Shown here: positions 19,353 to 47,530 of the stretch, one piece after another
Layout of the letters: every line of letters begins with the position of its first letter
How positions within the stretch are numbered: position 1 is the first letter of the stretch
Source of the DNA: Bacteroidota bacterium
GTDB taxonomy: Bacteria > Bacteroidota > Bacteroidia > Bacteroidales > GCA-2748055
Assembly (NCBI GenBank): GCA_024640885.1
Contig: JAHEEC010000020.1
Location: 1 to 53,340 of the forward strand
DNA: 53,340 nt
Reading direction: 5' to 3'
The notes under the pieces: generated by a model
Databases searched by the model: none
The model's input: only the letters and a program-made list of their open reading frames with translations
Told to the model about the DNA's origin: nothing
Position numbers and translations under genes: made by a program

Positions 19353-19404
19353 GCGACCTCCTCCATCCTGATGAAAAACAACCCCGAACCTAATCAAGGA
19401 ATCC

Positions 19405-20157: not shown

Positions 20158-20185
20158 TCTGGCAATTGGATTAGGTTTTCCTCCC

Positions 20186-20220: not shown

Positions 20221-20247
20221 ATTGATCCGTGCTGCAGCGCTTCGCGG

Positions 20248-28064: not shown

Positions 28065-28083
28065 ATACCAAATATATGAAATA

Positions 28084-28110: not shown

Positions 28111-28127
28111 GAAAAAGTATAATATTG
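28096..28127 (+). promoter_or_regulatory. Predicted promoter of the GH3 gene
   Basis: TTTG at 28096-28099, a 20-base spacer and TAATATTG at 28120-28127 match the Bacteroidota pattern TTTG-N17-20-TAnnTTTG. It is embedded in the operator and leaves a leader of about 20 bases before ATG 28153. Confidence 0.55.
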
Positions 28128-28152
28128 CACCTTAATTCAAATCCCACTGTAC

Positions 28153-30144: not shown

Positions 30145-30609
30145 TTATTTAAACTGGTAAAGGAAGACGACCACCCCTTTGTAGGCCGGTTTCTTGCTGT
30201 CCCTGATCTCCATGACCACTTCAACTTCTGCCTTTGCCGTCCCCCTGAGGTTAATGAGTGATTTCAGGACCGTTTTGATCCTTACCTCGCTCTCCACCAC
30301 AACGGGCTGACCGAATTTAAGGGTTTCGATCCCGTAATTCACCAGCATGGTGATGTTGTTCACCTCAATGATCTGGTCCCACAAATAGGGCAGGACGGAG
30401 ATGCTCAGGTATCCGTGAGCAATGGTTGCACCATATGGACTCTCCTTCTTGGCCCGTGCTTCATCCACATGGATCCACTGGTGATCCAGGGTGGCGTCGG
30501 CAAACTGGTCGATCTGTTGCTGGGTGATTTTATGGTAATCCGAAATTCCCAGCTCTTTTCCTACATGAGTTTCAAACTCATCATAACTGTTGATTACTAG
30601 TTTTCCCAT
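30145..30609 (-). CDS. MaoC-like (R)-specific enoyl-CoA hydratase family protein
   Basis: A 154-residue single hot-dog domain. The hydratase motif with catalytic Asp and His is readable in QFADATLDHQWIHVDEARAK near residue 34, where D-x4-H pairs with the following SPYGATIAHGYLSIS segment near residue 57. Such proteins hydrate enoyl-CoA thioesters or bind acyl chains. A ribosome-binding site (AAGGAG about nine bases before ATG 30609) supports the start. It stands alone between GH3 and the SusC gene; no beta-oxidation or polyhydroxyalkanoate genes are near, so its pathway is unclear. Confidence 0.9.
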   Translation of the reverse strand: MGKLVINSYDEFETHVGKELGISDYHKITQQQIDQFADATLDHQWIHVDEARAKKESPYGATIAHGYLSISVLPYLWDQIIEVNNITMLVNYGIETLKFGQPVVVESEVRIKTVLKSLINLRGTAKAEVEVVMEIRDSKKPAYKGVVVFLYQFK

Positions 30610-30937
30610 CGATAAGACTCCTTATATATATATGTACGGTGGCAAAAATAACCAATTCTTTTGTTTTTATTTTTAAATGTTCACACGGGTCACTGGTCGA
30701 CTATTGGATCAATAGAATTATTGAATTAGCCATTTATATATTTAATTCATAATCAGATATACCTCCCCGGGCCTCCGATTCCTCTGAAAGCCTCCCCTAT
30801 AAAAGGCTGAGTTGTGAACAATCCCAATGGTACAAAGGGATGGAACATTTTAACATTTGTTTGGCAATTCCCATTTAAATGCTATTTTTATGACACTAAA
30901 CTCCTACATCCAAATACTAACTAAAACTAACTTGATT
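30610..30937. other. Intergenic region upstream of susC
   Basis: This 328-base AT-rich gap carries the MaoC ribosome-binding site at its left end and the susC promoter at its right end. A short imperfect palindrome, CTATTG-GAT-CAATAG at 30701-30715, lies between them but is weak. The last 45 bases before susC are A/C-rich and unstructured, a usual susC leader. No gene or RNA could be supported inside. Confidence 0.55.
30860..30890 (+). promoter_or_regulatory. Predicted promoter of the susCD operon
   Basis: TTTG at 30860-30863, a 19-base spacer and TATTTTTA at 30883-30890 fit TTTG-N19-TAnnTTTG apart from the last base. A transcript start near 30897 would give a leader of about 40 bases. No extracytoplasmic sigma or hybrid two-component gene lies nearby. 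Confidence 0.45.
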
Positions 30938-33910
30938 ATGCGCAAATCTAGCATTTGGAAAAGTGGCCTATTGTCACTTCTCCTTATTGGCTTCGCATTC
31001 AGCCTGGCCAGCGCTCAGCAACGAACGGTTACAGGTCAGGTATCCTCCGATGCGGAGGGTCCAATCCCGGGGGTCAACATTGTGATCCAGGGAACAGTAC
31101 AGGGAGCCGTGAGCGATGTAAACGGAAATTTCAGTCTCGTTGTTCCGGGACCGGAATCGGTTCTGGTTTTTTCCTCTATCGGCTATTCGACCCAGGCCAT
31201 TACAGTGGGTGACCAGTCCACAATTAATATTTCACTGGTCGCCGATGTAACTTCACTTGATGAGATCGTGGTCATCGGGTATGGAACTCAGAAGAAGAAA
31301 GAGCTGACCAGTGCCATCGCCAACGTTAAATCTGATGATTTTGTGAAGGGTAACGTAAACAATCCTGCCCAGTTGATTCAGGGTAAGGTGGCCGGTCTCT
31401 CCATAAGCAAACCGGGCGGTAACCCCAATGAAGGATACACCATGCGCCTCAGGGGTATGAGTACCATCGGGGCCAACACCCAGCCACTGGTCGTGATCGA
31501 CGGTGTGGTCGGGGGATCACTTGATAACGTGGATCCCAGCGACATTGAATCCATCGATGTGTTGAAAGATGGTTCAGCTGCAGCCATTTATGGTACCAGG
31601 GGATCCAGCGGTGTGATCATCGTGACCACCAAGAAAGGTCGAAGGGGTACCGCACAGGTTGAATATAACGGATATGTGACCGCCGAATCGGTGGCCAAAT
31701 ATCCCAATGTAATGGATCCGGCTGAGTGGAGGGCGCTCTCAGAAGAGACCGACCTGGGGACCGATTTTGGAGCCAACACCAACTGGTTCGAGGAGACCAC
31801 CCAGACCGCCATTTCACAGGTGCATAACCTCTCCATGTCGGGCGGCACGGAACAGACTACCTACAGGGCCTCCTTTAACATACGCGACGGGGAAGGCGCA
31901 ATTATCAACACCGGGTTCAACCAGCTGAACGGAAGGCTGAACCTGAGGCAAAAAGCCATTAACGACAGGCTCACCGTTGAACTGAATATCGGGGCCACCC
32001 AGCGGGAATCCCAGTATGGATTTAACGAAGCGTTCCGGTATGCCTCCATCTATAACCCGACGGCACCGGTCAGAAGCTCTGACCCGGCCTACGAGATTTA
32101 TGATGGTTATTTCCAACAGGTGCTCTTCGATTATTACAATCCGGTCCAGATCCTTGAGGAGAATCACAATGACGGGAAGGATAAACGCTTAAACGTGGCG
32201 CTGAAAGGAGCCTTTGAGATCATTGACGGATTGACTGTGGATGCATTCTATTCTGTACAGACCCAGAGCTTCCTTAGGGGACGTTACTATGACAAGAACA
32301 GCTACTGGGTCGGTATGGACCGCAACGGACTGGCAGCAAGAAGCCAGGCTGATGACTTCAACCGCCTTTTTGAATCCACCGCGCACTATACTGGTAAGGT
32401 TGGCCAGGCCAATTTCACTTTGCTGGGAGGATACTCTTACCAGGAATTTACCTGGGAAGGTTTCAATGCAGAGGGGGGTGACTTTATCACCGATGCTTTT
32501 AATTACAACAACCTCAGCGCCGCACTCGATTTCAACAATGGGAAAGGTGATGTGGACAGCTACAAGAGCTCTGCCAAACTGATCGCCTTTTTCGGCCGTT
32601 TGAACCTGAATGTGACCGAGAGCTGGTTCCTTACTGCCAGTGCTAGGTACGAGGGCTCATCCCGGTTTGGTGAGGAGAACAAGTGGGGTTTCTTCCCGGC
32701 CGTGGGTGCCGGTGTGGAACTGGCCAACTTCCTTGATGTGGCCGCCATGGATAACCTGAAACTGAGGGCTAGCTTCGGGGTGACCGGGAACCAGCCGCGT
32801 GACAGCTACCTGTCGCTGCTTCGTCTGGGACCCCAGGGCAACTTCTTCTACAACGGAGAGTTCGTCCCGGGTTATGCCCCGGTTAGCAATGCCAACCAGG
32901 ACCTGGGCTGGGAAAAGAAGGCTGAGATCGATGTGGGACTCGACTTCTCATTTTTCGACGGCTCCCTGTTTGGTTCCTTTGACTTCTATACCAGGACCAC
33001 CACCGACCTCCTGTTCGAGTACGAAGTACCGGTTCCGCCGAACCTCTATACACAGGCATGGCTGAACCTTGGGGAGATCAGGAACAGCGGTCTTGAACTG
33101 AACCTGAACTGGAGAGCTGTCCAGACCGGTGATTTCTCTTACAGCCTCTCCATTACGCCTACCTATTACCTGAAGAACGAGCTGGTCTCCCTTTCGGGAA
33201 CATATAATGGTGCTGAGCTCTCATACGGGGTCCGTGACCTCGGTGGGATGGGAGCACCCGGTATGAGCGATGTGCCGTTGGTCAGGGCCGAAGAGGGTCA
33301 ACCCATCGGTCAGCTCTGGGCACTGGTATTCGAAGAAATAGACGAGTCCGGCAACCTGATCCTGAAGGATATCAATGAGGACGGAACTGTGGATCCCCAG
33401 GACCGCCAGGTGGTTGGGAATGGCCTCCCGGATGCAGAATTCGGTTTCGCCAACGTGTTCAGGTATAAGAACCTGGACCTGAACATCACCTTCCGCGGGG
33501 TACTCGGACACGATATCAACAACACCTACCGTGCATTTTACGAGGTGCCGCTGATGATCGGATCCTATAACCTTCCCCGAACGGCTACCGACATGAGGAA
33601 TTCCAGCACCGGTGCCCTGCTGAATAACTCATCAGGGGTATTGTCCGACTATCACATTGAGAGTGGTTCATTCGTATCACTGGACAATGCAAGCCTGGGT
33701 TACAATTTTGATATGTCGGGAAGTTCAGCTTTCAGGAACATCAGGGTATATGTGGCCGGGAACAGGCTTTTCTATATCACCGGCTACAAGGGAGTTGATC
33801 CCGAGCCAAGGTATGAAGATGACGGGAACCCGCTTATCCCTGGCATAGACAGGAGGAATACCTGGTTCAGGACCAGGTCAGTTTCCCTTGGTGTAAACAT
33901 TAGTTTTTAA
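30938..33910 (+). CDS. SusC-like TonB-dependent outer-membrane receptor
   Basis: A 990-residue outer-membrane importer that, with its SusD partner, takes up oligosaccharides or other large nutrients. ATG 30938 gives a signal peptide ending AFSLASAQQ. Domains in order: a carboxypeptidase-like beta-sandwich (TVTGQVSSDAEGPIPGVNIV, residues about 27-110), the TonB-box/SusC linker (LDEIVVIGYGTQKKKELTSA near 114), the plug with GKVAGLSISKPGGNPNE and VLKDGSAAAIYGTRGSSGVI, then the 22-strand barrel ending SVSLGVNISF. It belongs to the shorter class without an N-terminal STN domain. SusD follows after 43 bases. The substrate cannot be read from sequence, and no polysaccharide lyase or hydrolase is in the operon. 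Confidence 0.96.
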   Translation: MRKSSIWKSGLLSLLLIGFAFSLASAQQRTVTGQVSSDAEGPIPGVNIVIQGTVQGAVSDVNGNFSLVVPGPESVLVFSSIGYSTQAITVGDQSTINISLVADVTSLDEIVVIGYGTQKKKELTSAIANVKSDDFVKGNVNNPAQLIQGKVAGLSISKPGGNPNEGYTMRLRGMSTIGANTQPLVVIDGVVGGSLDNVDPSDIESIDVLKDGSAAAIYGTRGSSGVIIVTTKKGRRGTAQVEYNGYVTAESVAKYPNVMDPAEWRALSEETDLGTDFGANTNWFEETTQTAISQVHNLSMSGGTEQTTYRASFNIRDGEGAIINTGFNQLNGRLNLRQKAINDRLTVELNIGATQRESQYGFNEAFRYASIYNPTAPVRSSDPAYEIYDGYFQQVLFDYYNPVQILEENHNDGKDKRLNVALKGAFEIIDGLTVDAFYSVQTQSFLRGRYYDKNSYWVGMDRNGLAARSQADDFNRLFESTAHYTGKVGQANFTLLGGYSYQEFTWEGFNAEGGDFITDAFNYNNLSAALDFNNGKGDVDSYKSSAKLIAFFGRLNLNVTESWFLTASARYEGSSRFGEENKWGFFPAVGAGVELANFLDVAAMDNLKLRASFGVTGNQPRDSYLSLLRLGPQGNFFYNGEFVPGYAPVSNANQDLGWEKKAEIDVGLDFSFFDGSLFGSFDFYTRTTTDLLFEYEVPVPPNLYTQAWLNLGEIRNSGLELNLNWRAVQTGDFSYSLSITPTYYLKNELVSLSGTYNGAELSYGVRDLGGMGAPGMSDVPLVRAEEGQPIGQLWALVFEEIDESGNLILKDINEDGTVDPQDRQVVGNGLPDAEFGFANVFRYKNLDLNITFRGVLGHDINNTYRAFYEVPLMIGSYNLPRTATDMRNSSTGALLNNSSGVLSDYHIESGSFVSLDNASLGYNFDMSGSSAFRNIRVYVAGNRLFYITGYKGVDPEPRYEDDGNPLIPGIDRRNTWFRTRSVSLGVNISF

Positions 33911-33953
33911 TCCTGAAAATGAAGACGATATGAAAGCTAAAGAAAAATATAAC

Positions 33954-35651
33954 ATGAAAAAATCAATATTTCTTATCAAAGGAATACTGATTGTGTTGAT
34001 CATGGCAGGATTTAACCAGTCATGCACCAACCTGGACGAAGAACTCTACGACGCGGTTACACCGGATAACTTTTTCAACACAGAGGAGGAATATGTATCT
34101 GCACTTGGTGCAGCTTACACCCAATTCGGAGATTTTGCCTCCAATGATCCCTTTTCACTTCAGTGTGTTTCCACCGATGAGATGGTGGTCCCCACGCGTG
34201 GACAGGACTGGGATGACGGCGGTGAATGGAGAAGGCTGCACCTGCACTCATGGACCTACGAGGACGGGTATACCAATGGCGGCTGGAACTTTGGTTTCGG
34301 TGGTGTCAATACGGCCAACCGGCTGATCTACCAGTTCACCACCCTCGTAGAGAGCGGACAGGTGGAGCAGGCCACTGCGGATGCATTCATCGCTGAATTA
34401 AAGACGGTCCGGGGCTTCTTTTACTGGCAACTGATCGACCTCTATGGCAATGTGCCCCTGGTCCTTGACTTTGCCACCGCGGAAGCCACACCACCCACGG
34501 TTGACCGGGCACAGGTCTATGCTGCCATTATCAGCGACCTGGAAGAGTCCGTTCCCAAATTATCGGATGCAGTGGACGGAACCACCTACGGCAGGATGAA
34601 CTTTTATGCAGGACAGACCTTGCTGGCAAAAATGTACCTCAATGCAGAGGTTTATACGGGAACTGCCCAGTGGGGCAAGGTGGTCACGGCCTGCGACGAA
34701 GTCATTGATGGCAATCAATATGGGCTTGAGAGCAACTATTTTGCCAACTTTAATGAGGACAATTCAGGATCCGGCGAATTTATCTTTGCCATTCCTTACG
34801 ACCAGGTATTCTTCGGGGGGTTTAACCTTGCCACCCGTACACTGCACTACGGAAGCCAGCAGACTTATAACCTGACCCAGCAGCCCTGGAACGGATTCTG
34901 CACCCTGGAGGAGTTCTACAACTCATACGACGATGCAGATCTGCGAAAGGGAGATGTGGGTACAGTGGATGGTCCCGCAATTAGAAGGGGCAATTTTATC
35001 GCCGGGTATCAGTACAAAGCCGACGGTGATATGGTGACCGATGACGGATTTGAGTCACCCAAGCCTGACAGGCAACCTGCTCCACTGCTTGGAGATCCCG
35101 ATGGTCTGCCCCTCAATTTCGGGAACATCGGTTCGACGCAACCTACCATCAATGAACTGGGCCCCCAGGCTTACCGCCAATCGGGTGTCCGGATCGGGAA
35201 ATGGGAATTTGGCATGGGATCTGATCCCGGAGCCATGAGCAACGATTATGCGGTCTTCAGGTATGCCGATGTGCTCCTGATGAAAGCGGAAGCGCTCTTT
35301 CACCTGGGACAGGCCTCAGAGGCTCTGGTCCTCGTCAACCTGGTCAGAGCACGTGCCGGGCTTGGTGATCTTGTTTCGCTGGACGGTCCCCTCAGCTTTG
35401 ACGTCGCTGCAGGTGATGTACTAGGTGGAGAACTGTTCAACGAGATCGGGCGCGAAATGTTCTCAGAGAACCACAGGAGACAGGATCTCATCCGTTGGGG
35501 ATTCTTCACCGATGTGGACAAATGGGTGCTGCCCTTCTACAATGCCGGTGATGTGTTGACCACCAGCGGGCATACCACTTTATTCCCTGTACACCGGGAT
35601 AAACTGGATGCCAACAAGAACCTGGTTCAGAACCCTGGTTACACACAGTAA
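33954..35651 (+). CDS. SusD/RagB-like nutrient-binding lipoprotein
   Basis: A 565-residue surface lipoprotein that forms the lid on the SusC barrel. ATG 33954 gives MKKSIFLIKGILIVLIMAGF ending NQSCTNLDEE, with Cys24 lipidated; an in-frame ATG at 33930 would add eight residues. Family text includes LYDAVTPDNFFNTEEEYVSA, FIAELKTVRGFFYWQLIDLY near residue 146, which is the SusD TPR-like helix pair, and VFRYADVLLMKAEALFHLGQ near residue 430; the end HRDKLDANKNLVQNPGY is the usual SusD close. The ligand is unknown. A strong terminator follows. Confidence 0.96.
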   Translation: MKKSIFLIKGILIVLIMAGFNQSCTNLDEELYDAVTPDNFFNTEEEYVSALGAAYTQFGDFASNDPFSLQCVSTDEMVVPTRGQDWDDGGEWRRLHLHSWTYEDGYTNGGWNFGFGGVNTANRLIYQFTTLVESGQVEQATADAFIAELKTVRGFFYWQLIDLYGNVPLVLDFATAEATPPTVDRAQVYAAIISDLEESVPKLSDAVDGTTYGRMNFYAGQTLLAKMYLNAEVYTGTAQWGKVVTACDEVIDGNQYGLESNYFANFNEDNSGSGEFIFAIPYDQVFFGGFNLATRTLHYGSQQTYNLTQQPWNGFCTLEEFYNSYDDADLRKGDVGTVDGPAIRRGNFIAGYQYKADGDMVTDDGFESPKPDRQPAPLLGDPDGLPLNFGNIGSTQPTINELGPQAYRQSGVRIGKWEFGMGSDPGAMSNDYAVFRYADVLLMKAEALFHLGQASEALVLVNLVRARAGLGDLVSLDGPLSFDVAAGDVLGGELFNEIGREMFSENHRRQDLIRWGFFTDVDKWVLPFYNAGDVLTTSGHTTLFPVHRDKLDANKNLVQNPGYTQ

Positions 35652-35677
35652 GGATTTATAGATAATTATTTTTTGGG

Positions 35678-35712
35678 AAGCAGGCAATTGAAAAATTGCT
35701 TGCTTTCTTTTT
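35678..35712 (+). terminator. Intrinsic terminator after susD
   Basis: A 12-base-pair stem, 35678-35689 with 35694-35705, has one G-U pair and a GAAA tetraloop, followed by TCTTTTT. It ends the susCD transcript 26 bases after the susD stop. The TTG at 35700-35702, inside the right arm, stands 20 bases before TAATATTG (35723-35730), so a promoter for the next gene may overlap the terminator. Confidence 0.78.
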
Positions 35713-35785: not shown

Positions 35786-38700
35786 ATGGCCGCCCTGGTG
35801 CTGATCGCCGCCTCCCTTGCTTTCTCCTGCAACCGGGGAGCCTCCGGTTCAGAACCCGCTTCCCTGTTTACACTTCTCCCCGGGGATCGAACCGGGATCA
35901 CTTTCCTGAACCAGGTGGATTATACCGAAGAGTATAACACCTATACCTACAGGAACTTTTACAATGGCGCGGGAGTGGGACTGGGTGATTTTAACAATGA
36001 CGGATTCATTGATATCTATTTCTGCGGCAATATCACGGACAACAAGCTATACATCAACAAAGGCGAATTTGTTTTTGAGGATGTCACGGAGCATGCGGGG
36101 GTGGCCTGCAGTGATGTATGGTGCACCGGGGTGAGCATTGCCGATGTGAACGGGGATGGATGGCAGGACATCTATGTCTGCAAGTCGGGAGATCCCGAAG
36201 CTCCGAACCGCCACAATGAATTATTCATCAACAACGGTGACCTGACCTTTACCGAACAGGCGCGCGAATACGGGATCGCTGATATGGGATTGTCCACCCA
36301 TGCCTCTTTTTTTGATTATGACCGGGACGGGGACCTGGACTGTTACCTGTTGAACAATTCGTTTCAGTCGGTAACCCAGTTTGACTTCAAGCCGGAGGAG
36401 CGCTGGAAGCGGGATACCCTGGGAGGAAACAAACTTTATCGGAACGACGGGGGGAGCTTTTCGGATGTGAGCGAGACGGCCGGGATCTATGGGAGCAAGA
36501 TCGGGTTTGGACTGGGGGTGAGTGTGGGTGATGTGAACAGGGATGGATGGATCGATCTCTATATTTCCAACGATTTCTTTGAACGGGATTACCTCTACAT
36601 CAATAAAGGAGATGGCACATTCAGCGAGTCGCTGGAAGAGCAGATGACCGAAATCAGCCTTGGAGCCATGGGGGCCGATGTGGGGGATATCAACAACGAC
36701 ACCTATCCGGACATCTTCGTGACCGAGATGACCGCTGAAGGCGACAGGCGGCTGAAAACAAAGGTTCTCTTCGACAGCTGGGAAACCTATCAGACAAAAG
36801 TGGCCGGTGGCTATCACCACCAGTTTGCCCGGAACGTGCTTCAGCTTAACAACAGGAACGGGTCATACAGTGAAATTGGCCGGTTGAGCGGGGTCTCAGC
36901 CACTGACTGGAGCTGGGGGGCTCTCATCATGGACCTGGATAACGATGGGTGGAAAGATATTTTTGTGGCCAACGGGATCTATAAGGACCTGCTGGACCGT
37001 GATTTTCTGGACCTTTACTCAGATCCCTCGGTGATGAGGACCATGATCCGGACAGAGGAGAGCGCCATATTGAGCATCATTGATCAGATCCCCTCTGAAA
37101 GGATCCCAAATTATGCTTTTCACAACAACGGGGACCTGACCTTTACGAACCTTGCAGCTCCGTGGGGGCTCGCTACGCCCTCCTTTTCCAATGGAGCGGC
37201 CTATGGGGATCTGGATAACGACGGGGACCTTGACCTTGTGGTCAACAACGTCAATATGCCCTCATTTATCTACAGGAATGAGACGCCCCCGGGAGAGAAC
37301 CAGAACTTCCTTACAGTGCAACTCCGGGGATCAGGGGCGAATACTGGGGCCATTGGCGCCGGGGTCACCCTGTTTTATTCAGGAAAGATGCTTTACCAGG
37401 AGCAGGTTCCCATGCGTGGATTCAAATCTTGTGTGGACCACCGGCTTCATTTTGGCCTCGGTCCGTGCAACCTTATTGACTCTCTGATCGTGCAGTGGCC
37501 GGATGGGAGCACAACCCTTACCAGTGACATCCCGGTTAATCAGTTCCTGGAGATGGATCAGCAAAATGAAATGGTCAGGGAAAGGCCGGTGGGTGAAATT
37601 GAATCCCGGCCACTGTTCAGTCCCAAGGATTCCCCGTCGTCGCCGGAATATACCCATGTGGAAGATGAATATTCGGATTTCGATCGTGAAAGCCTTTTGT
37701 TTACCATGTTATCCAACGAGGGTCCACACATGGCAGTGGGGGATGTAAATGGTGACGGATGGGAGGATCTCTATATTTGCGGAGCCAGGGGCACTCCCGG
37801 CACCCTCTTCGTCCAGCTGGGGGGTAAACGCTTCAGAGCGACCAACGAAGCGCTATTCGGGGCCGACAGGATTTCAGAGGAGACCGACTGTGCTTTCTTT
37901 GATGCCGATGGAGATAGTGACCTGGATCTTTATGTCGCCTGTGGTGGAAATGAGTTCTCTTCGAGTTCTTCGGCACTTCTTGACCGGTTGTACCTGAACA
38001 ACGGTCAGGGGGTCTTTTCTAAATCCGGACAACTGCTCCCTGCGGGAAAATATGAAAGCACATCCTGCGTCACTCCTGCTGATTTTGACGGGGACGGGGA
38101 TTTGGACCTGTTCGTGGGCATTCGTTTAACGCCCTTCCAGTATGGAGTTCCGGTCAATGGTTACCTGCTTGAGAATGACGGGAAGGGAAGCTTCTCCAAT
38201 GTATCTGACTCAAACGCACCCGGCCTGAAAGGGATCGGGATGGTCACAGATATGACATGGGCCGATGTGGACAGGGACGGGGACCCGGACATGGCCATCG
38301 TAGGGGACTGGATGCCTGTAAAACTTTTTATAAATAACAACGGAATATTCTCGGACGAATCCCTGCAATTTGGCCTTTCCGGCACCCAAGGGTGGTGGAA
38401 CGTGATTGTGGCCCTGGACCTGGACGGGGATGGTTTTCCGGATTTTGCGCTTGGGAACCATGGCCTTAATTCCCGTTTTAAAGCCTCGGCAGAAAAACCC
38501 GTGACCATGTATGTGAATGACTTTGACCTGAACGGGAGGGTGGAGCAGATCATTTGCACCTATGAGGGTGACCGTTCCTTCCCCCTGGTAATGAAGGATG
38601 AACTTGTCAGACAGATCCCCGTGCTTGAGAAGAAGTATCCCACCTATGACAGTTATAAGGAGCAGACCATGGAGGATATTTTTTCAGCAGAGGTCCTGGA

Positions 38701-39091
38701 AAGGTCTGTCAGGCTGGAATCCCGGATCATGGCCAGTTGCCTGGCTATTAACAGCGGTTCGGGATCATTCAGGCTAACCCCGCTGCCCCTGGAAGCACAG
38801 TTCTCACCGGTCTACGCACTGGTTGCCAACGATTTTGACGGTGACGGCAACTGTGACCTGCTACTGGGGGGTAACCAGACCAGGGCCAAGCCGGAAACAG
38901 GGATTTATAATGCAGGATTCGGCCTCTTCTTAAAAGGGAACAAAGATGGAGCGATGGATGCAGTTCCTTCCGAAATATCAGGTATTTTTGTGAAAGGCGA
39001 GATCCGCGACCTGGAGCTCATGAGTGCAGCGGGCAAGCGGGTCATTGCGGTGGCAAGGAACAACGAACCATTATTATTTTTCAATTATTGA
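35786..39091 (+). CDS. FG-GAP/VCBS-repeat lipoprotein with central ASPIC/UnbV domain, copy 1
   Basis: A 1,101-residue exported lipoprotein. ATG 35786 gives MAALVLIAASLAFSC with Cys15 lipidated; the in-frame ATG 35738 would add 16 residues not typical of a signal peptide. It holds 14 calcium-loop-like repeats of the form DxNxDGxxD. Seven come first (DFNNDGFID, DVNGDGWQD, DYDRDGDLD, DVNRDGWID, DINNDTYPD, DLDNDGWKD, DLDNDGDLD), then an ASPIC/UnbV domain at about nt 37340-37560 with VDHRLHFGLG and DSLIVQWPDG, then seven more (DVNGDGWED to DFDGDGNCD). Two seven-bladed propellers are inferred. Cell-surface location and Ca2+ binding are inferred; the ligand is unknown. It follows SusCD and leads a run of three paralogues. 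Confidence 0.88.
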   Translation: MAALVLIAASLAFSCNRGASGSEPASLFTLLPGDRTGITFLNQVDYTEEYNTYTYRNFYNGAGVGLGDFNNDGFIDIYFCGNITDNKLYINKGEFVFEDVTEHAGVACSDVWCTGVSIADVNGDGWQDIYVCKSGDPEAPNRHNELFINNGDLTFTEQAREYGIADMGLSTHASFFDYDRDGDLDCYLLNNSFQSVTQFDFKPEERWKRDTLGGNKLYRNDGGSFSDVSETAGIYGSKIGFGLGVSVGDVNRDGWIDLYISNDFFERDYLYINKGDGTFSESLEEQMTEISLGAMGADVGDINNDTYPDIFVTEMTAEGDRRLKTKVLFDSWETYQTKVAGGYHHQFARNVLQLNNRNGSYSEIGRLSGVSATDWSWGALIMDLDNDGWKDIFVANGIYKDLLDRDFLDLYSDPSVMRTMIRTEESAILSIIDQIPSERIPNYAFHNNGDLTFTNLAAPWGLATPSFSNGAAYGDLDNDGDLDLVVNNVNMPSFIYRNETPPGENQNFLTVQLRGSGANTGAIGAGVTLFYSGKMLYQEQVPMRGFKSCVDHRLHFGLGPCNLIDSLIVQWPDGSTTLTSDIPVNQFLEMDQQNEMVRERPVGEIESRPLFSPKDSPSSPEYTHVEDEYSDFDRESLLFTMLSNEGPHMAVGDVNGDGWEDLYICGARGTPGTLFVQLGGKRFRATNEALFGADRISEETDCAFFDADGDSDLDLYVACGGNEFSSSSSALLDRLYLNNGQGVFSKSGQLLPAGKYESTSCVTPADFDGDGDLDLFVGIRLTPFQYGVPVNGYLLENDGKGSFSNVSDSNAPGLKGIGMVTDMTWADVDRDGDPDMAIVGDWMPVKLFINNNGIFSDESLQFGLSGTQGWWNVIVALDLDGDGFPDFALGNHGLNSRFKASAEKPVTMYVNDFDLNGRVEQIICTYEGDRSFPLVMKDELVRQIPVLEKKYPTYDSYKEQTMEDIFSAEVLERSVRLESRIMASCLAINSGSGSFRLTPLPLEAQFSPVYALVANDFDGDGNCDLLLGGNQTRAKPETGIYNAGFGLFLKGNKDGAMDAVPSEISGIFVKGEIRDLELMSAAGKRVIAVARNNEPLLFFNY

Positions 39092-39097
39092 TTGGGC

Positions 39098-39727
39098 ATG
39101 AGAATGAGATTAAGTATTTGGATGATCCTGGTTTCAATGGCCGGATTCATCCTGGGGGGATGCACACCCGGAGCATCCTATGAGCGGAAGTTAAAAAAGG
39201 AGCTTGCCAGCGGGGTGAGGTATGATTCTTTATTCATGGGAATTTACCTGGGGATGAGCGATAAGGATTTTTACACCCATTGTTGGGAGTTGAACAGGCA
39301 GGGTGTGATCAAACAGGGATCAAAGAACATGTCGGTAGAACATGGGCTGAAAGCCGAGCTGAACCATCCTGCCACCATGAACTTCTATCCCGAGTTCATT
39401 CAGGGGAAAATCGCCGAAATGCCGGTACAGTTTATATACAACGGGTGGGCGCCCTGGAATAAAGGGCTCTCTTCGGATAGCCTGCTGCTGGATGTGGTCC
39501 GGTGGTACGAACAGGTATACGGCAACGGTTTCATCGTCGTGGAACATCCCCAGCGGGGAAAGGCCTATGTGAAGATCAACGGGAACAGGCGCATCACCCT
39601 GTTCAAAAAAGATGACATGTATGTGTGGGCAATTTTCAGGGACATGCTGGTTGAAGAGGGGGCCGGTGATACAACCAATAACGCTGGGGTAATTAAAGAT
39701 GATTTTGGTGCGAAAATTGAAAATTAG
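39098..39727 (+). CDS. Unrecognised lipoprotein inside the FG-GAP cluster
   Basis: A 209-residue protein with lipoprotein signal MRMRLSIWMILVSMAGFILG followed by GCTPGAS, so Cys22 is the lipid site. ATG 39098 is used rather than TTG 39092. The mature part is alpha/beta: YDSLFMGIYLGMSDKDFYTH near residue 44, MNFYPEFIQGKIAEMPVQFI near residue 95, a helix LLLDVVRWYEQVYGNGF, then strands RRITLFKKDDMYVWAIF. The MGIYLGMSDKDFYTH text recalls SmpA/OmlA-like small outer-membrane lipoproteins, but only weakly. I do not recognise the family. It starts six bases after copy 1 and its last 29 bases overlap copy 2 in another frame, so it is surely co-expressed with them. Confidence 0.72.
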   Translation: MRMRLSIWMILVSMAGFILGGCTPGASYERKLKKELASGVRYDSLFMGIYLGMSDKDFYTHCWELNRQGVIKQGSKNMSVEHGLKAELNHPATMNFYPEFIQGKIAEMPVQFIYNGWAPWNKGLSSDSLLLDVVRWYEQVYGNGFIVVEHPQRGKAYVKINGNRRITLFKKDDMYVWAIFRDMLVEEGAGDTTNNAGVIKDDFGAKIEN

Positions 39728-42700
39728 AATTCTGCAGGGGCTCTTCTGGGCATCGGTTCCGTTCATATTTTACGCATGTGGAAAGAAGGCTGAGGCTCCC
39801 GCAGGTGATCCGCTGTTCATGCTGATGCCAGCCAGTGTGACCCATACCGATTTCATCAATCACCTGGATTACGATGAACAACTGAAGAAGAAATTCAATA
39901 TTTATACTTACCGGAATTTTTACAATGGCGGCGGCGTTGGGTTGGGTGACGTGAACAACGACGGCCTGGTCGATATCTTTATGACCAGCAATATGGGTTC
40001 CAACGTGCTCTACCTTAACAAAGGGGATTTTGAGTTCGAGGACATCTCACAGAAGGCGGGAATTGCTGGAAAAGGGGAGTGGTCCACCGGCGTGAGCCTG
40101 GCGGATGTAAACGGGGACGGTTGGATCGATATATACGTCTGCAATTCGGGAAATGTGGCTGGAGATGAAAAGCACAATGAATTGTATATCAACAACGGGG
40201 ACCTGACCTTTTCCGAGCGGGCGGCAGAATATGGGATCAATGACCAGGGCTATTCCACCCACGGGGCTTTTTTCGATTACGACCGGGACGGGGACCTGGA
40301 CCTCTATTTGCTGAACAACTCCTTCAAGGCCATTGGCAGTTTTGACCATACCAGGAGTCTGCGGGAAACCAGGGACCCCATCGGGGGTGACAAACTTTAC
40401 CGGAACGAGGGCGGCATATTTAAGGATGTCAGCCTCCAGGCGGGCATTTACGGCAGTGAGATCGGGTTTGGACTGGGTGTGACCGTAGGGGATATTGACC
40501 AGGATGGCTGGATGGATATCTACGTCTCCAATGATTTTTTTGAACGGGATTACATCTATATGAACAACCGGAACGGAACGTTCCGGGAGGTGCTTACCGG
40601 GATGATGAGGAGCATCTCCGCAGCGTCCATGGGGGCTGATATGGCCGACCTGAACAATGATCACTACCCCGAGATATTCGTGACCGATATGATCCCCGAG
40701 CACGATGACCGGCTCAAGACAAAGACCACCTTCGACAACTGGGACAGTTACAGTGCCAGTGTTGAAAAGGGCTATCACCACCAGTTCACACGCAACATGC
40801 TGCATCTGAATAATGCAGACGGCACTTTCAGTGAAATAGGAAGGCTTGCAGGCGTCTATGCCACCGACTGGTCGTGGGGCGCATTGATCATGGACATGGA
40901 CAATGACGGGTTGAAGGATATTTTCGTGGCCAATGGTATATACCAGGACCTGACAGATCAGGATTATATCCAGTTTTTCTCGAACCGGGATATGGTCATG
41001 TCCATCGTATCGGGCAAAAACGTGGATTACAAGACCCTGATCGATGCCATACCTTCGGTAAAGATTCCCAGCTACGCTTTCAGGAATACGGGCAACCTTG
41101 GATTCACAAATATGGCGCTCCCCTGGGGATTGGCCGAGCCCAGCCACTCCAATGGCTCCGCTTACGGGGACCTGGACAATGACGGGGACCTGGACCTGGT
41201 GGTCAATAATGTAAACATGCCCATGTTTGTGTATCGCAACCAGACCACCGAGCAATTGCCCGACCACCATTTCCTGAAGGTCATCCTTAAGGGCGAGCCT
41301 GGCAACACCGACGCCATTGGTGCCAAGGTGACAGTCAAGCACCTGGGTAAAATGTTCTACCTGGAGCAGATGCCGGTCCGGGGATTCAAGTCCACGGTGG
41401 ATGCACGTCCCAACCTGGGGCTGGGCAACCTGACCATGGTTGATTCCCTCATCATCCAGTGGCCCGATGACCGGGTTACTGTGACTACCAATGTGCCCAC
41501 GAATCAGACATTGACCTTTTACCAGAAAGAGGCAATGGAGCTGTCCCTGGATCCGGGCGGCTCAGTTTCCCAGGCTGGTTCTCCCCAACCCGGAGGTGCC
41601 CTGTTTGAGGATCTGGGGAGCCGGAGCCCGTTACACTTTATCCATCAGGAGAGTGATTATAATGATTTCATGCGGGAAAGCTTGATCTATCATATGATGT
41701 CGACCGAGGGTCCCCGCATGTGCACGGGGGATGTGAACGGTGACGGAAGGGAAGATCTTTATGTGGGGGGAGCTGAGGGATACCCCGGAAGCCTGTTGGT
41801 TCAACTGGCCAATGGAACATTTCAACCCGTCGCGCTGGCCCTGTTTGAACAGGATAAAGCATCTGAAGATATTGACTGTGCCATGTTTGATGCAGACGGG
41901 GACGGGGATACAGACCTTTATGTGGCCAGTGGAGGGAATGAATTCAATTCAAGTTCGTCGGTGCTGAAAGACCGCCTTTACCTGAATGACGGCAGGGCAC
42001 ATTTCACAAAGTCCCCCCAGGTCCTGCCGGGGGGGAAGTATGAGAGTTCTTCCTGCGTGAGGAGTGCTGACTACGATCATGACGGCGACATGGACCTGTT
42101 CGTGGGAATCCGGCTAAGGCCCTTCCTTTACGGAGTCCCTGTGAAGGGGTATCTGCTGCAAAATGACGGGAAGGGGAATTTTACCAATGTGACTCCGGAG
42201 GTGGCACCCGGACTGATTGACCTGGGGATGATCCGGGACATGCGCTGGGCAGATGTAAACGGGGATGGAAATGAGGACATGATCGTGGCAGGTGACTGGA
42301 TGCCCGTGAAGATCTTTCTTAACGAAAATGCCATTTTCAGGGAGCACCAGGGGGCCTTTGGTTCTGAAAAAACATCAGGCTGGTGGAACTGCCTGGCAGT
42401 GGGTGATATTGATTCGGACGGGGACGTGGATTTTGTCGGGGGCAACCACGGGCTGAATTCACGCTTCAGGGCATCGGCGGAAAGACCCGTAAGCATGTAT
42501 GTGAATGATTTTGACCTCAATGGCTCCGCCGAACAGATCATTTGCACCTTTGACGGGGATACCTCTTATCCGCTCGCCCTGAAACATGACCTGATCAGGC
42601 AGCTGCCCGGACTGGAGAAGAAATACCCGAAATACGAAATGTACAGTGGCCAGCAAATCACTGATATTTTTACGGAAGCGCAGTTGAAGAATTGTATCTA

Positions 42701-43088
42701 CCTGGAAGTGAATGAACTGAAGACCTCCCTGTTCCTCAATGATGGGGCCGGCAACTTCACCGTGAGCCCGCTGCCTGTGGAGGCCCAGTTCTCCCCTGTA
42801 TTTGCAGTGCAGGTGGGGGATTACAACAGTGACGGCCACCCCGATCTGCTGCTGGGCGGTAACCTGTACAATGTTAAGCCCGAGGTGGGGCGTTATGATG
42901 CAAGCTGCGGATCCACGCTGCTGGGGGACGGGAAGGGCGGTTTTCGAAGCGTTCCTTCCAAATTCACAGGGTTCCGTCTGGAGGGGGAGATCCGGGATTT
43001 CACCGAGGTCAGCACCCCCCTCGGGGATCTTTTGGTCGTGGCCCGGAGCAATGGCCCGTTGCAGGTTTTTAAAGTGCTGGACCCCTGA
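39699..43088 (+). CDS. FG-GAP/VCBS-repeat lipoprotein with central ASPIC/UnbV domain, copy 2
   Basis: A 1,129-residue paralogue of copy 1. A signal segment (LQGLFWASVPFIFYACGKK) gives a lipidation Cys at about residue 27. The start is ATG 39699, inside the end of the previous gene by 29 bases; GTG 39708 is possible. Again 14 repeats are found: seven before (DVNNDGLVD, DVNGDGWID, DYDRDGDLD, DIDQDGWMD, DLNNDHYPE, DMDNDGLKD, DLDNDGDLD) and seven after (DVNGDGRED to DYNSDGHPD) the ASPIC/UnbV domain at about nt 41300-41520 (VDARPNLGLG, DSLIIQWPDD). It is closer to copy 1 than to copy 3, sharing the segment NIYTYRNFYNGGGVGLGD near residue 67. Function unknown; probable surface binding protein. Confidence 0.88.
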   Translation: MILVRKLKIRILQGLFWASVPFIFYACGKKAEAPAGDPLFMLMPASVTHTDFINHLDYDEQLKKKFNIYTYRNFYNGGGVGLGDVNNDGLVDIFMTSNMGSNVLYLNKGDFEFEDISQKAGIAGKGEWSTGVSLADVNGDGWIDIYVCNSGNVAGDEKHNELYINNGDLTFSERAAEYGINDQGYSTHGAFFDYDRDGDLDLYLLNNSFKAIGSFDHTRSLRETRDPIGGDKLYRNEGGIFKDVSLQAGIYGSEIGFGLGVTVGDIDQDGWMDIYVSNDFFERDYIYMNNRNGTFREVLTGMMRSISAASMGADMADLNNDHYPEIFVTDMIPEHDDRLKTKTTFDNWDSYSASVEKGYHHQFTRNMLHLNNADGTFSEIGRLAGVYATDWSWGALIMDMDNDGLKDIFVANGIYQDLTDQDYIQFFSNRDMVMSIVSGKNVDYKTLIDAIPSVKIPSYAFRNTGNLGFTNMALPWGLAEPSHSNGSAYGDLDNDGDLDLVVNNVNMPMFVYRNQTTEQLPDHHFLKVILKGEPGNTDAIGAKVTVKHLGKMFYLEQMPVRGFKSTVDARPNLGLGNLTMVDSLIIQWPDDRVTVTTNVPTNQTLTFYQKEAMELSLDPGGSVSQAGSPQPGGALFEDLGSRSPLHFIHQESDYNDFMRESLIYHMMSTEGPRMCTGDVNGDGREDLYVGGAEGYPGSLLVQLANGTFQPVALALFEQDKASEDIDCAMFDADGDGDTDLYVASGGNEFNSSSSVLKDRLYLNDGRAHFTKSPQVLPGGKYESSSCVRSADYDHDGDMDLFVGIRLRPFLYGVPVKGYLLQNDGKGNFTNVTPEVAPGLIDLGMIRDMRWADVNGDGNEDMIVAGDWMPVKIFLNENAIFREHQGAFGSEKTSGWWNCLAVGDIDSDGDVDFVGGNHGLNSRFRASAERPVSMYVNDFDLNGSAEQIICTFDGDTSYPLALKHDLIRQLPGLEKKYPKYEMYSGQQITDIFTEAQLKNCIYLEVNELKTSLFLNDGAGNFTVSPLPVEAQFSPVFAVQVGDYNSDGHPDLLLGGNLYNVKPEVGRYDASCGSTLLGDGKGGFRSVPSKFTGFRLEGEIRDFTEVSTPLGDLLVVARSNGPLQVFKVLDP

Positions 43089-43097
43089 GGCATTGCT

Positions 43098-46000
43098 ATG
43101 AAAAATCTGGTCCTTCTTCCGGTGATGGCATGTTTGGTTTTTTCCTGTAAAAAAGGGAAGATGGAGCCGGGGACCCTGTTTACAGAGCTCACAGGGAAAA
43201 CCACCCGGGTGGATTTTGCAAACAACCTTTCCGAAAACGAGCAGAACAACATCATCGAATACCTCTATTTCAACAACGGGGGAGGGGTTGCGGCAGGAGA
43301 CATCAACAATGATGGCCTGGCGGACCTCTATTTCACTGCAAACCAGGAATCCAACAGACTCTACCTGAACAGGGGAGGTCTCAGGTTTGAGGATATCACC
43401 CACGAAGCGGGGGTGGGAGGGAGTGGTGACTGGAAGACCGGGGTGACCATGGCCGACCTGAACGGGGACGGTTTCCTTGATATCTACGTTTGCCAGGTGG
43501 GTAATTACAAGGGGTTCCAGGGGAGGAACCAGCTCTATGTGAATCAGGGTGACATGACATTCAAGGAAGAAGGCCGGAAATATGGCCTTGATTTCCAGGG
43601 ATTTTCCACCCAGTCGGCATTCTTTGACTATGACCTGGACGGGGATCTGGATATGTACCTGCTGAATCATTCGGTGCATACGTCCCGAAGCTATGGAGGT
43701 GCTGAACTCAGGTATGGCCAGGATCAGCGTGCCGGGGACCGGCTCTACCGCAACGACGAGGTGGATGGGAATAGGGTGTTTCATGACGTGACTTCACAGG
43801 CGGGGATCTACAGCAGCCAGATCGGGTATGGCCTTGGGGTAAGTATAGCTGACCTCACCAATGACGGGTTCCCCGATATCTATGTGTCAAACGATTTCCA
43901 TGAAAATGATTACCTCTACATAAACAACGGGGACGGGACCTTCAGCGAGCAACTGACCGAAATGATCGCCCAGACCAGCAGGTCCTCCATGGGCAACGAT
44001 GTGGGGGATATTAACAACGACGGGCTGCTGGATGTGGTGGTGCTGGATATGCTCCCCGATGAGGAGCGGATACTCAAGCAATCGGGAGGGGAGGATGACT
44101 ACGAGTTGTTCAATATAAAACTGGGATTTGGATATCATCACCAGTATGTGCGAAACACCCTGCAGATGAACCTGGGTGAAGGTAAATTCAGCGAAATTGG
44201 GAGGTTGGCCGGGATCCAGGCCACGGACTGGAGCTGGGCACCCCTGTTCTGCGATCTGGACAACGATGGCTGGAAAGATCTGTTTATCACCAATGGAATT
44301 TACCGCAGGGCCAATGACCTGGATTACGTGCAGTTCCTGACAGGGGGAAGCAGGTATTCATCACCGGGGGACAACCGCGGCCTCACCAACAGGGAGTTGT
44401 ATGAAAAGATGCCCCTTTACCCAAATGTCAATTATCTCTACAAGAACAACGGTGACCTGACATTTACCAATATGTCTCCTTCCTGGGGCATCATCACGAG
44501 GTCCTTCTCCAACGGTTCAGCCTATGCGGATCTTGACAATGACGGAGACCTGGACCTGGTGGTCAACAACATCAATGCTCCGGCTGTGATCTACAGGAAC
44601 AATACCTCCGACATGCTGGATAACCACTATTTTTCTGTGATCCTCAGGGGGGAAGGCCTGAATTCGTATGGTACGGGGACCCGGGTCACCCTGTTCTCCG
44701 GCGGATCCGCCAGGGTTGGGGAGCAGTTTACCACCCGGGGATTTCTCTCATCCTCTTCAGATGCATTGCATTTTGGCCTTGGGACGGCAGGAACAGTGGA
44801 TTCCTTATGGGTATGCTGGCCCGACCGGTCGATCCAGAGATTCTACGGGTTGACTGCCGACCAGCAATTCTCAATCGAACATCCCGCCAGCGGAAACCAA
44901 TGTACAATCGATCCCCGGGAGGAGCACGGAGCTCAGCTTTTTTCCCGGCAACACCTTCAGGGACTGGTCTTCAGACACCGGGAAGATCCCTATGTGGACA
45001 TGATCAGGGAAAGACTGATCCCGCATAATCTTTCATCGGAAGGTCCCCCGCTGGCCGTTGGGGATGTGAACGGGGATGGATTGGAGGATCTCTTTGCGGG
45101 CGGAGCCGCGGGCCAACCTGCCATGCTCTTCATGCAGGGGAAGACCGGGGTATTCATTCCTTCGAAAGTGAGCCAGTTCCTGAATGACCGCTACACTGAA
45201 GATACGGGGGCATCCTTTTTTGATGCAGACGGGGACGGGGATCTGGATCTGTACATTGTAAGGGGAGGCAACGAGCTGCCCGCCGGAAATCCTATGCTGC
45301 TGGACAGGCTCCTGGTGAACAATGGCACGGGCGAATTTTCCAGGTGCAGCCAGGGGGCATTGCCCTTTATTGCAGCCAACGGTTCATGCGTGAAGCCGGG
45401 CGATTATGACGGGGACGGGGACCTGGACCTTTTTGTGGGATCAAGGTCCGTTCCCGGAGCCTACGGGATCACCCCCGACCATTTTCTCCTGGAGAATGAT
45501 GGAAAAGGATGGTTCAGGGAGGTCACTGCCGAGCGAATTGAAGGGATCAGGGAGGCAGGGATGGTGACCGATGCTGAGTGGGTGGATTATGACCTGGATG
45601 GAGACCCGGACCTGGTGACCGTGGGTGAATGGAGCCGGGTCTGTATCTACAGGAATGACGGGGGGTATTTGAAACCGGCCACCACCGAGGCGGGTCTTGC
45701 CGGCACCTCGGGCTGGTGGAACTGCGTGAAAGCCGTGGACATTGATCAGGACGGTGATGCGGACCTGGTGGCAGGGAACCTGGGCCTTAATTCCATGCTT
45801 AGGGCTTCAGAAAGGGAGCCTTTGGAGATGTACCTCAATGATTTTGATAACAATGGGTCCCTCGACCAGGTGATTTGCACATTCAGGGAGGGGAAGAGTT
45901 ACCCCATAGCCACCCTGGATGAACTGGCGTTGCAGGTTGCAGGAATGAAGGAGCGGTATCCGGGTTACTCTGATTTTGCAGGAAAGAACACAGCGGAGAT

Positions 46001-46412
46001 CTTTGGAGCGGAGAGCCTGGGACGATCGGTCAGAAAAGAGGCAGCACTCCTTGAAAGTTGCGTCTTTATCAACGGTGGAGACGGGACCTTTGCACGTGTC
46101 AGGCTTCCTAACCTGGCCCAATCCTCTCCTGTGCGGGATGTGGTGGTCAGTGACTTTGACAGGGATGGCCACACTGACCTGCTCCTGGTGGGGAACGACT
46201 ATTCGGCCAGGCCTTCCCTGGGGCGCTATGATGCCAGTGTTGGCTGGTACCTGCAGGGACAACCTGACCATCGGTTCAGGGCATTGATGCCATCTGAAAG
46301 CGGATTGAGGGTGAACGGCGACGCCCGCAAAATACTGCCCATCAAGATCATGGGAAATCCTTGCCTGGCAGTGGCAGTGAATGACGGGGATCTCCAGGTG
46401 ATCCGCTACTGA
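43098..46412 (+). CDS. FG-GAP/VCBS-repeat lipoprotein with central ASPIC/UnbV domain, copy 3
   Basis: A 1,104-residue paralogue. Signal peptide MKNLVLLPVMACLVFSCKKG gives Cys17. It starts at ATG 43098, nine bases after copy 2. The architecture is the same: seven repeats (DINNDGLAD, DLNGDGFLD, DYDLDGDLD, DLTNDGFPD, DINNDGLLD, DLDNDGWKD, DLDNDGDLD), an ASPIC/UnbV domain at about nt 44650-44870 (SDALHFGLG, VDSLWVCWPD), and seven more (DVNGDGLED to DFDRDGHTD). It is the most diverged copy: the first blade reads IEYLYFNNGGGVAAGD instead of YTYRNFYNG, and the YNDFM-like text after UnbV is YVDMIRERLIP. This suggests an older split from the ancestor of copies 1 and 2. The gene converges on the GH130 gene. 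Confidence 0.88.
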   Translation: MKNLVLLPVMACLVFSCKKGKMEPGTLFTELTGKTTRVDFANNLSENEQNNIIEYLYFNNGGGVAAGDINNDGLADLYFTANQESNRLYLNRGGLRFEDITHEAGVGGSGDWKTGVTMADLNGDGFLDIYVCQVGNYKGFQGRNQLYVNQGDMTFKEEGRKYGLDFQGFSTQSAFFDYDLDGDLDMYLLNHSVHTSRSYGGAELRYGQDQRAGDRLYRNDEVDGNRVFHDVTSQAGIYSSQIGYGLGVSIADLTNDGFPDIYVSNDFHENDYLYINNGDGTFSEQLTEMIAQTSRSSMGNDVGDINNDGLLDVVVLDMLPDEERILKQSGGEDDYELFNIKLGFGYHHQYVRNTLQMNLGEGKFSEIGRLAGIQATDWSWAPLFCDLDNDGWKDLFITNGIYRRANDLDYVQFLTGGSRYSSPGDNRGLTNRELYEKMPLYPNVNYLYKNNGDLTFTNMSPSWGIITRSFSNGSAYADLDNDGDLDLVVNNINAPAVIYRNNTSDMLDNHYFSVILRGEGLNSYGTGTRVTLFSGGSARVGEQFTTRGFLSSSSDALHFGLGTAGTVDSLWVCWPDRSIQRFYGLTADQQFSIEHPASGNQCTIDPREEHGAQLFSRQHLQGLVFRHREDPYVDMIRERLIPHNLSSEGPPLAVGDVNGDGLEDLFAGGAAGQPAMLFMQGKTGVFIPSKVSQFLNDRYTEDTGASFFDADGDGDLDLYIVRGGNELPAGNPMLLDRLLVNNGTGEFSRCSQGALPFIAANGSCVKPGDYDGDGDLDLFVGSRSVPGAYGITPDHFLLENDGKGWFREVTAERIEGIREAGMVTDAEWVDYDLDGDPDLVTVGEWSRVCIYRNDGGYLKPATTEAGLAGTSGWWNCVKAVDIDQDGDADLVAGNLGLNSMLRASEREPLEMYLNDFDNNGSLDQVICTFREGKSYPIATLDELALQVAGMKERYPGYSDFAGKNTAEIFGAESLGRSVRKEAALLESCVFINGGDGTFARVRLPNLAQSSPVRDVVVSDFDRDGHTDLLLVGNDYSARPSLGRYDASVGWYLQGQPDHRFRALMPSESGLRVNGDARKILPIKIMGNPCLAVAVNDGDLQVIRY

Positions 46413-46438: not shown

Positions 46439-47530
46439 TTATTCAGAAATAGCTACACCCACGTAGGAATCTGCGGTTCCGTAATAGAGAAACCATTTGG
46501 AATGGAAATAAACCAGGCCTTCTGCAAAGGTGGTACCGGATTCATACTGCCCGGTGATCTCGTGGGGTAGGGTAGGCCTCAGTAAAAAACTGTCGCTCCT
46601 GTAGATGACCCTCTCCGGGTCGTTCTTGTCAAATACGATCTTTCCCACCGAATACATTCCCCTGGGCAGGCCAGGATCCGCATCATCAAAATCCGAATTT
46701 TTGCCATTGTAGAACAGCACGATCCCCTCATCAGTAATGATGGCAGGGGGACCGCATTCGGTGAGCTGGCTGTCGAATTTATGGCTTCTGGGTTCAGCCA
46801 CCGCCTTCAGGTTGCCCGCTTCATCCAGCAACGGGTACCAGTCATGCAAATTCTCGGACCAGGCCAGGTTGATAATGTTCTCGCCCCAGTACATCCAGTA
46901 TTTACCATCCAGTTGGGCCAGGATCTGCCTGGATCCTTCCATTTTTGTGATCATGGACCCTGATTTGGACCATTGATCCAGGAATCTCCCCTCATGGGCC
47001 CTGGCGAATGCAGGACCCTTTTTGTCCCAGTGAACCAGGTCTGTGGAAAAGGCGATGCTGAGCCTTGCAATATCCCGGTTCCATGCGGTATAGGCCATTA
47101 CATAGACCCCATCCCCGGTCTCTGCCACCCTTGGATCCTCGCAGCCCCCCGGGTAATCATATTGCATAAATTCCCCGCTGTCGGGATATAGGACAGGCTC
47201 CGCACGGGTTGTGAAGTGGATGCCGTCTTCACTGGAGGCGAGCCCGATCCTGGAGGTTCTCCACCCCAGGATGGCATCGGGATTATCCTCGCTCCTGACC
47301 AGAAGATAAACCCTGCCATCCCTGACAACGGCACCCGGGTTGAATACATCTGCCTTTTGCCATTTCACCTCTTCATTCTTTACCGGGCAGATGAAGGTCA
47401 GCGTGGAATCTGCCCTGATGATGGGATTTTCATCGGGTTTGTAAAAACTTTGAAAATCCCACTCAAATGCAGGGTTTGAATTGCATCCAAGGAAGATCAG
47501 CGGAACCATGTAAAACAATAATTTTTTCAT
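46439..47530 (-). CDS. GH130-family lipoprotein (mannoside phosphorylase/hydrolase-like)
   Basis: A 363-residue, five-bladed propeller enzyme attached to a membrane by lipid: signal MKKLLFYMVPLIFLGC with Cys16. The family core reads FNPGAVVRDGRVYLLVRSED near residue 63, GGCEDPRVAETGDG near residue 128 with proposed catalytic Asp132, YTAWNRDIARLSIAFSTDL near 150, then the strands with QLTECGPPAIITDEGIVLFY and FAEGLVYFHSKWFLYYGTAD. GH130 contains mannoside phosphorylases and beta-1,2-mannosidases; the lipoprotein form suggests a periplasmic or surface hydrolase rather than a cytosolic phosphorylase, by analogy only. It converges on the FG-GAP run and follows a methyltransferase gene. Confidence 0.86.
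   Translation of the reverse strand: MKKLLFYMVPLIFLGCNSNPAFEWDFQSFYKPDENPIIRADSTLTFICPVKNEEVKWQKADVFNPGAVVRDGRVYLLVRSEDNPDAILGWRTSRIGLASSEDGIHFTTRAEPVLYPDSGEFMQYDYPGGCEDPRVAETGDGVYVMAYTAWNRDIARLSIAFSTDLVHWDKKGPAFARAHEGRFLDQWSKSGSMITKMEGSRQILAQLDGKYWMYWGENIINLAWSENLHDWYPLLDEAGNLKAVAEPRSHKFDSQLTECGPPAIITDEGIVLFYNGKNSDFDDADPGLPRGMYSVGKIVFDKNDPERVIYRSDSFLLRPTLPHEITGQYESGTTFAEGLVYFHSKWFLYYGTADSYVGVAISE

Follow-up and report, generated by a model that had tools for sequence, protein, structure and literature searches.

A Conserved SusCD-Linked Gene Cluster of Bacteroidota Encoding Three Predicted Twin-Propeller Lipoproteins and a Small Lipoprotein

Introduction

Three adjacent genes in a genome of the Bacteroidales encode lipoproteins of 1,101, 1,129, and 1,104 residues, stand downstream of a SusC-SusD pair, and enclose a small lipoprotein gene between the first and the second. 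This arrangement raises the question of whether the three giant lipoproteins belong with the transporter and the small lipoprotein as one system and, if so, on which side of the outer membrane and on what kind of substrate such a system would act. The locus lies in a stretch of 53,340 nucleotides (assembly GCA_024640885.1, contig JAHEEC010000020.1, positions 1 to 53,340 of the forward strand), here called the window. A first-pass annotation had been made from its sequence alone; we followed it up by profile searches, structure prediction, phylogenetic trees, and comparison of gene order across genomes.

Results

The genes of the locus, here called V1, V2, and V3 for the three giant lipoproteins, are arranged on one strand as follows.

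30857..33910, plus strand: SusC-like TonB-linked outer-membrane transporter (TIGR04056, E 1.5e-216; likely start at an ATG near 30938)
33930..35651, plus strand: SusD-like lipoprotein (PF07980, E 7.7e-31) with an acidic export signal, TNLDEE, directly after the cysteine (signal analysis)
35675..35708, plus strand: terminator-like hairpin in the SusD-V1 gap, a 15-bp stem followed by a T run; probable attenuator
35786..39091, plus strand: V1 (copy 1), predicted FG-GAP lipoprotein of 1,101 aa with two seven-bladed propellers and UnbV (a second possible ATG is at 35738)
39092..39727, plus strand: interposed small lipoprotein, about 209 aa from the ATG at 39098
39699..43088, plus strand: V2 (copy 2), predicted twin-propeller lipoprotein with UnbV, 1,129 aa, of the copy-2 ortholog group
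43098..46412, plus strand: V3 (copy 3), predicted twin-propeller lipoprotein with UnbV, 1,104 aa, of the copy-3 ortholog group

The three giant lipoprotein genes named in the first-pass annotation are intact open reading frames at these positions, each with a lipobox cysteine, and profile matches confirmed the SusCD pair that it had placed upstream of them. The SusC match to TIGR04056 scored 722 bits against a cut-off of 368, and the adjoining of a SusC/RagA-family TonB-linked barrel and a SusD-family lipoprotein identifies the pair as a SusCD (RagAB) importer. From V1 through V3, neighboring genes overlap or lie at most 10 bases apart, the last 29 nt of the small lipoprotein gene being shared with V2. 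On the other side of SusC, the window carries a MaoC-like gene (30145-30609, minus strand) between SusC and a GH3 gene (28153-30117, plus strand), and an NrtR/AraR-type Nudix regulator gene (27294-28130, minus strand) is divergent from the GH3 gene.

V1, V2, and V3 are related from end to end, with identities of 57% for V1/V2, 46% for V1/V3, and 44% for V2/V3. The profile searches proposed as a check found FG-GAP repeats (PF13517/PF01839) in all three copies with E values of 1e-82 to 1e-86 and 10-11 FG-GAP_3 stretches per protein, together with one PF07593 UnbV/ASPIC domain in each (E 1e-17 to 1e-19). Seven DxNxDGxxD motifs had been reported on either side of UnbV. This 7 + UnbV + 7 plan holds for the relaxed motif Dx[DN]x[DN]xxx[DE], which occurs seven times before and seven times after UnbV at matching positions in V1, V2, and V3, copy 1 having one additional chance match; the literal form is present just four to five times per protein. 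All 14 motif sites are kept in 23/30 copy-1 and in 23/30 copy-2 orthologs, while copy-3 orthologs keep 11-14 of them, V3 being the least well kept.

An AlphaFold2 model of V1, computed with 77 homologues as input, reached a mean pLDDT of 92.3 and a pTM of 0.92. Its residues 25-600, a propeller plus UnbV, resemble cartilage acidic protein 1 (CRTAC1; 9etn) with a Z score of 39.5 (2.3 Å over 460 residues, 23% identity), and hmmsearch with the 77-row profile recovered 9etn at an E value of 2e-25. Residues 606-1101 form a second complete seven-bladed propeller, with matches that include the LGI1 EPTP domain (Z 31.4), Ski8, RACK1, and G-beta. The 7 + 7 calcium-type motifs and the predicted fold identify integrin-type FG-GAP beta-propellers, and PF07593 directly after a propeller, with the CRTAC1 fold predicted, marks the first half as CRTAC1-like. 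V1 is thus predicted with high confidence to consist of two separate seven-bladed propellers, as the first-pass annotation had proposed, so that the outcome named there as refuting it, a number of propellers other than two, did not arise; the same fold is expected for V2 and V3 because of their 57% and 46% full-length identity to V1. The proposal that UnbV joins the two propellers needs refinement: UnbV is not a symmetric joint and in the predicted fold belongs to propeller 1, as in CRTAC1, with the linker to propeller 2 coming after it. CRTAC1 shares with V1 an FG-GAP seven-bladed propeller followed by ASPIC/UnbV; it differs in having a single propeller and in not being an outer-membrane lipoprotein of bacteria encoded beside SusCD. 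A 2011 survey (PMC3192720) already described proteins of bacteria that have 14 signatures and a tandem pair of seven-bladed propellers, so the twin-propeller architecture itself is not new; the main text of that survey, however, has no UnbV, ASPIC, TonB, or SusCD cluster.

A scan of 84,980 species genomes yielded 80 loci, a sample biased to relatives of the query. Among the 68 complete gene runs, the number of V copies was three in 26, two in 20, one in 21, and five in 1. UnbV was present in 34 genomes (33 besides the window's own) of a phylum sample of 80, in which at least two tandem copies of about 1,100 residues were found in 14 of the 33 others (counted by eye from the table) and three tandem copies were read, likewise by eye, in G073, G089, and G116. 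The triplicate had been taken to be unusual, which these counts do not support: among the complete runs, three is the commonest copy number. SusCD directly precedes the first V copy in 43/68 complete runs, which is a lower bound, as the probe missed some divergent SusD genes; judged from sequence rather than by the scan, one five-locus cluster encodes a SusD-like protein that the probe did not recognize. The exact order SusC-SusD-V1-small lipoprotein-V2-V3 has 16 complete occurrences, with hosts that include Maribacter, Flaviramulus, Muricauda, Roseivirga, Algoriphagus, Marinoscillum, Saprospiraceae, and Aureispira, and it recurs over much of the phylum, in Bacteroidales, Flavobacteriia, Cytophagia, and Saprospiria. 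This order, or a variant of it, begins with SusCD in 20/22 complete runs that hold the small lipoprotein. Nine other searched genomes of the window's genus carry the same locus, with the small lipoprotein likewise between V1 and V2. Some relatives (e.g., L032, L035, L048, L070, and L072) have V genes but no SusC within reach.

Further UnbV arrays were seen in the course of the comparison. At four loci of the same genus (L087, L091, L092, and L097), a second SusC-SusD-V unit (V4) comes immediately after V3. The window's genome has that unit on another contig (C111, L082), and its V3 is followed by a GH130 gene instead. Contig C269 of the same genome (L081) holds an array of three neighboring open frames of 1127, 574, and 1242 residues. 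In another family of the class, contig C55 of G085 (7374-20539) has five genes on the same strand for UnbV proteins of about 840-900 residues, with a spacing of 2.6-2.8 kb among four of them.

The relationship among the copies was read from a tree of 82 proteins, all from small-lipoprotein loci and each labeled by its position relative to the small lipoprotein (before it, after it, or next). The labels split the tree with 2 changes, the minimum for three groups; the V2 group and the V3 group each form one side of a branch with an SH-aLRT support of 100, and a wider tree of 198 proteins has the same position pattern. Copies 1, 2, and 3 are, by these trees, three ortholog groups. It follows that the triplication predates the window's genus and that the order has been retained; a recent local triplication was ruled out, as the copy groups are older than the genus. 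Outside the calcium motifs, positions with at least 95% identity in all three groups number 56/382 in propeller 1, with many invariant polar residues, and 16/398 in propeller 2. The SusC genes of small-lipoprotein loci cluster in the SusC tree: their 26 rows require 2 changes, compared with a mean of 22.4 after shuffling. Furthermore, the distance matrices of all six genes correlate across 17 loci (r 0.32-0.84, every pair above 500 permutations); shared vertical descent accounts for part of this correlation, which therefore demonstrates joint inheritance and not contact. Gene order, SusC clustering, and co-divergence support the view, already put forward from the window alone, that the trio, SusCD, and the interposed lipoprotein belong to a single system.

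The small lipoprotein has no Pfam or NCBIfam match. Its structural model is a confident one (pLDDT 88.9), but a fold search gave a best PDB Z score of 7.1 and no Foldseek E value under 0.001; since the matches were middling and generic and no family model exists in either database, assignment to a known family was dropped. An alignment-based search of 392 genomes of the phylum found it in 27, in exactly one copy each. V genes stand on both flanks in 22 of these 27 matches, and a V2-type gene starts downstream in 26/27; G062 has an intervening 270-residue open reading frame. Partial modules (L011; L157 and L159) retain the small lipoprotein together with V2, and for this reason it looks like the partner of V2.

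A terminator-like hairpin is present in the gap between SusD and the first V gene in 45/54 loci, against 14.2 expected from mononucleotide shuffles. Its place is conserved across these gaps, and its sequence varies. The hairpin is likely to act by attenuation, providing more SusCD than V1-V3; because it separates SusCD from the remaining genes, an equal level of transcription is not required.

Surface lipoproteins of Bacteroidota carry an acidic export signal after the lipid cysteine (PMC5080379; PMC6222051). In the SusD proteins of these loci, the six residues after the cysteine have a mean net charge of -2.56, and at least two of them are acidic in 65/71 (92%). In contrast, the mean net charge of the same six residues is -0.17 in V1, 0.07 in V2, 0.50 in V3, and 0.14 in the small lipoprotein, and at least two acidic residues are found in 33%, 40%, 36%, and 19%, respectively. 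An acidic pair at positions +2 to +6 occurs in 46% of SusD proteins, 13% of V1, 3% of V2, 18% of V3, and 3% of small lipoproteins, compared with 24% of the other putative lipoproteins of these loci. In the window, the cysteine is followed by NRGASG in V1, GKKAEA in V2, KKGKME in V3, and TPGASY in the small lipoprotein, none of which is an export signal, so these four proteins do not classify as surface lipoproteins carrying that signal. The description of the run as a surface system is therefore not established, the trio and the small lipoprotein mostly lacking the signal that the SusD of their own operon carries, and the amino-terminal sequences lean, and only lean, toward the periplasmic face. 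The export-signal rule is an imperfect prediction rule: K/E-rich starts occur in some flavobacterial copies, and large surface lipoproteins without the classic signal may exist.

Clues to the substrate come from the neighbors of the loci. LacI-family regulators lie near 18/80 loci, in most cases immediately upstream of SusC and divergent from it, and some loci have sugar genes nearby (GH127, GH65, 3-keto-disaccharide hydrolase, and Gfo/Idh/MocA). Together these favor a sugar-type substrate, and a sugar or glycoconjugate is our best guess. No CAZyme has a constant place next to the module in the loci compared; with no enzyme fixed in the module, no specific sugar is named. The CAZyme neighbors in the window, on which a reading as a polysaccharide utilization locus would draw, are the GH3 gene upstream and a convergent GH130 gene downstream (46439-47530, minus strand), which runs toward V3 and whose product is related to the beta-1,2-mannosidase BT3780 (487.7 bits, which is below the 550-bit cut-off). 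A glycan assignment from this enzyme was dropped, as the gene is convergent, was otherwise met only in L006 (8723-9814), and is replaced in same-genus relatives by the second SusCD-V unit. A homologue of a vanadium-dependent haloperoxidase of solved structure (4cit, E 1e-143) lies near 39/80 loci, L016 (3814-5163) among them; 10 of the 39 hold the small lipoprotein, and in many the homologue comes right behind the last V gene. It was not found in the window's genome, in a search run without a positive control, and on these two counts was not adopted as a core member. A 3-keto-disaccharide hydrolase gene (PF06439; 49798-50664, minus strand) also lies near the module in the window; relatives are near the module in L001, L019, L027, L028, and L039, and four of these five loci have Gfo/Idh/MocA oxidoreductases nearby as well.

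Discussion

The reading that we prefer, with a confidence about evenly balanced between yes and no, is that the six genes encode an outer-membrane import module in which SusCD is joined by four accessory lipoproteins dedicated to handling the substrate, possibly at the periplasmic face. Uptake would be the task of SusC, with SusD as its lid; V1-V3, which would be non-redundant, and the small lipoprotein paired with V2 would bind it and pass it on, or hold the transporter complex together, all module proteins acting together. The stronger conservation of propeller 1 suggests that it may carry a shared site, and the less conserved propeller 2 could give each copy its own partner or ligand. The hairpin would keep SusCD in excess over V1-V3.

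Where the accessory proteins sit admits more than one answer. Integrin-type propellers are usually extracellular binding domains, and every accessory protein of the module is a lipoprotein. Both points would fit V1-V3 and the small lipoprotein standing outside on SusCD as substrate binders, like the surface glycan-binding proteins (SGBPs) of the levan and dextran utilisomes. Stable complexes of SusCD with accessory lipoproteins are an established pattern (PMC7618045), and bacterial relatives of the integrin-type propellers have been described (PMC3192720); however, the acidic signal that SusD has in the same operons is mostly missing from V1-V3 and the small lipoprotein, and we regard this arrangement as possible but on the unlikely side. 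We hold it doubtful, too, that the module is a phylum-wide system whose three ortholog-distinct 14-blade lipoproteins and small lipoprotein are on the periplasmic side and accept or process the substrate once it has passed SusC. Should that reading be true, it would point to a step in SusCD transport that has yet to be described.

That the propeller proteins are enzymes, for example on oxidized or halogenated sugars, and the operon a degradation pathway, appears improbable. Propeller 2 of V1 has a weak fold likeness to aldos-2-ulose dehydratase (4a7y; Z 29, 8% identity), propeller 1 has many invariant polar residues, and Gfo/Idh/MocA oxidoreductases, 3-keto-disaccharide hydrolases, and the haloperoxidase homologue stand beside some loci; however, matches of this strength are generic among propellers, catalytic residues could not be mapped, and these neighbors are not fixed across loci. 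Adhesion or matrix proteins with only incidental proximity to SusCD, as the integrin-like propellers and the V genes without SusC in reach might suggest, are very improbable in view of the persistent order, the SusC clustering, and the co-divergence of six genes.

As in the SusCD utilisomes of B. thetaiotaomicron (PMC7618045), SusC, SusD, and accessory outer-membrane lipoproteins are encoded together in the module; in those utilisomes the accessory proteins are SGBPs and glycoside hydrolases, whereas the module has three twin-propeller paralogues and a small lipoprotein of no known class, from which the export signal is mostly absent. Other SusCD-linked VCBS/UnbV arrays of Bacteroidota likewise have two to three tandem copies of about 1,100 residues after SusCD, often with a vanadium haloperoxidase homologue next; many of them, unlike the module, lack the small lipoprotein and V1. 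No description of the six-gene cluster was found in the open-access literature on VCBS, UnbV, FG-GAP, or CRTAC1 with SusC, SusD, TonB, or PUL. The propeller architecture and the linkage to SusCD are of kinds already known. What is new is that the three ortholog groups occur as a fixed set, that the small lipoprotein belongs to an unclassified family, that the hairpin is conserved, and that the accessory lipoproteins mostly lack the export signal.

Environmental Bacteroidota abound in proteins whose annotation goes no further than FG-GAP or UnbV repeats and to which no role has been assigned. Three such proteins and an unclassified lipoprotein family now form a defined six-gene module with orthologous slots. 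Because the module occurs in the cultured genera Maribacter, Algoriphagus, Marinoscillum, Roseivirga, and Muricauda, localization, complex formation, and substrate can be tested genetically, and with them the question, which the module raises, of whether large SusCD-linked lipoproteins can work without an export signal.
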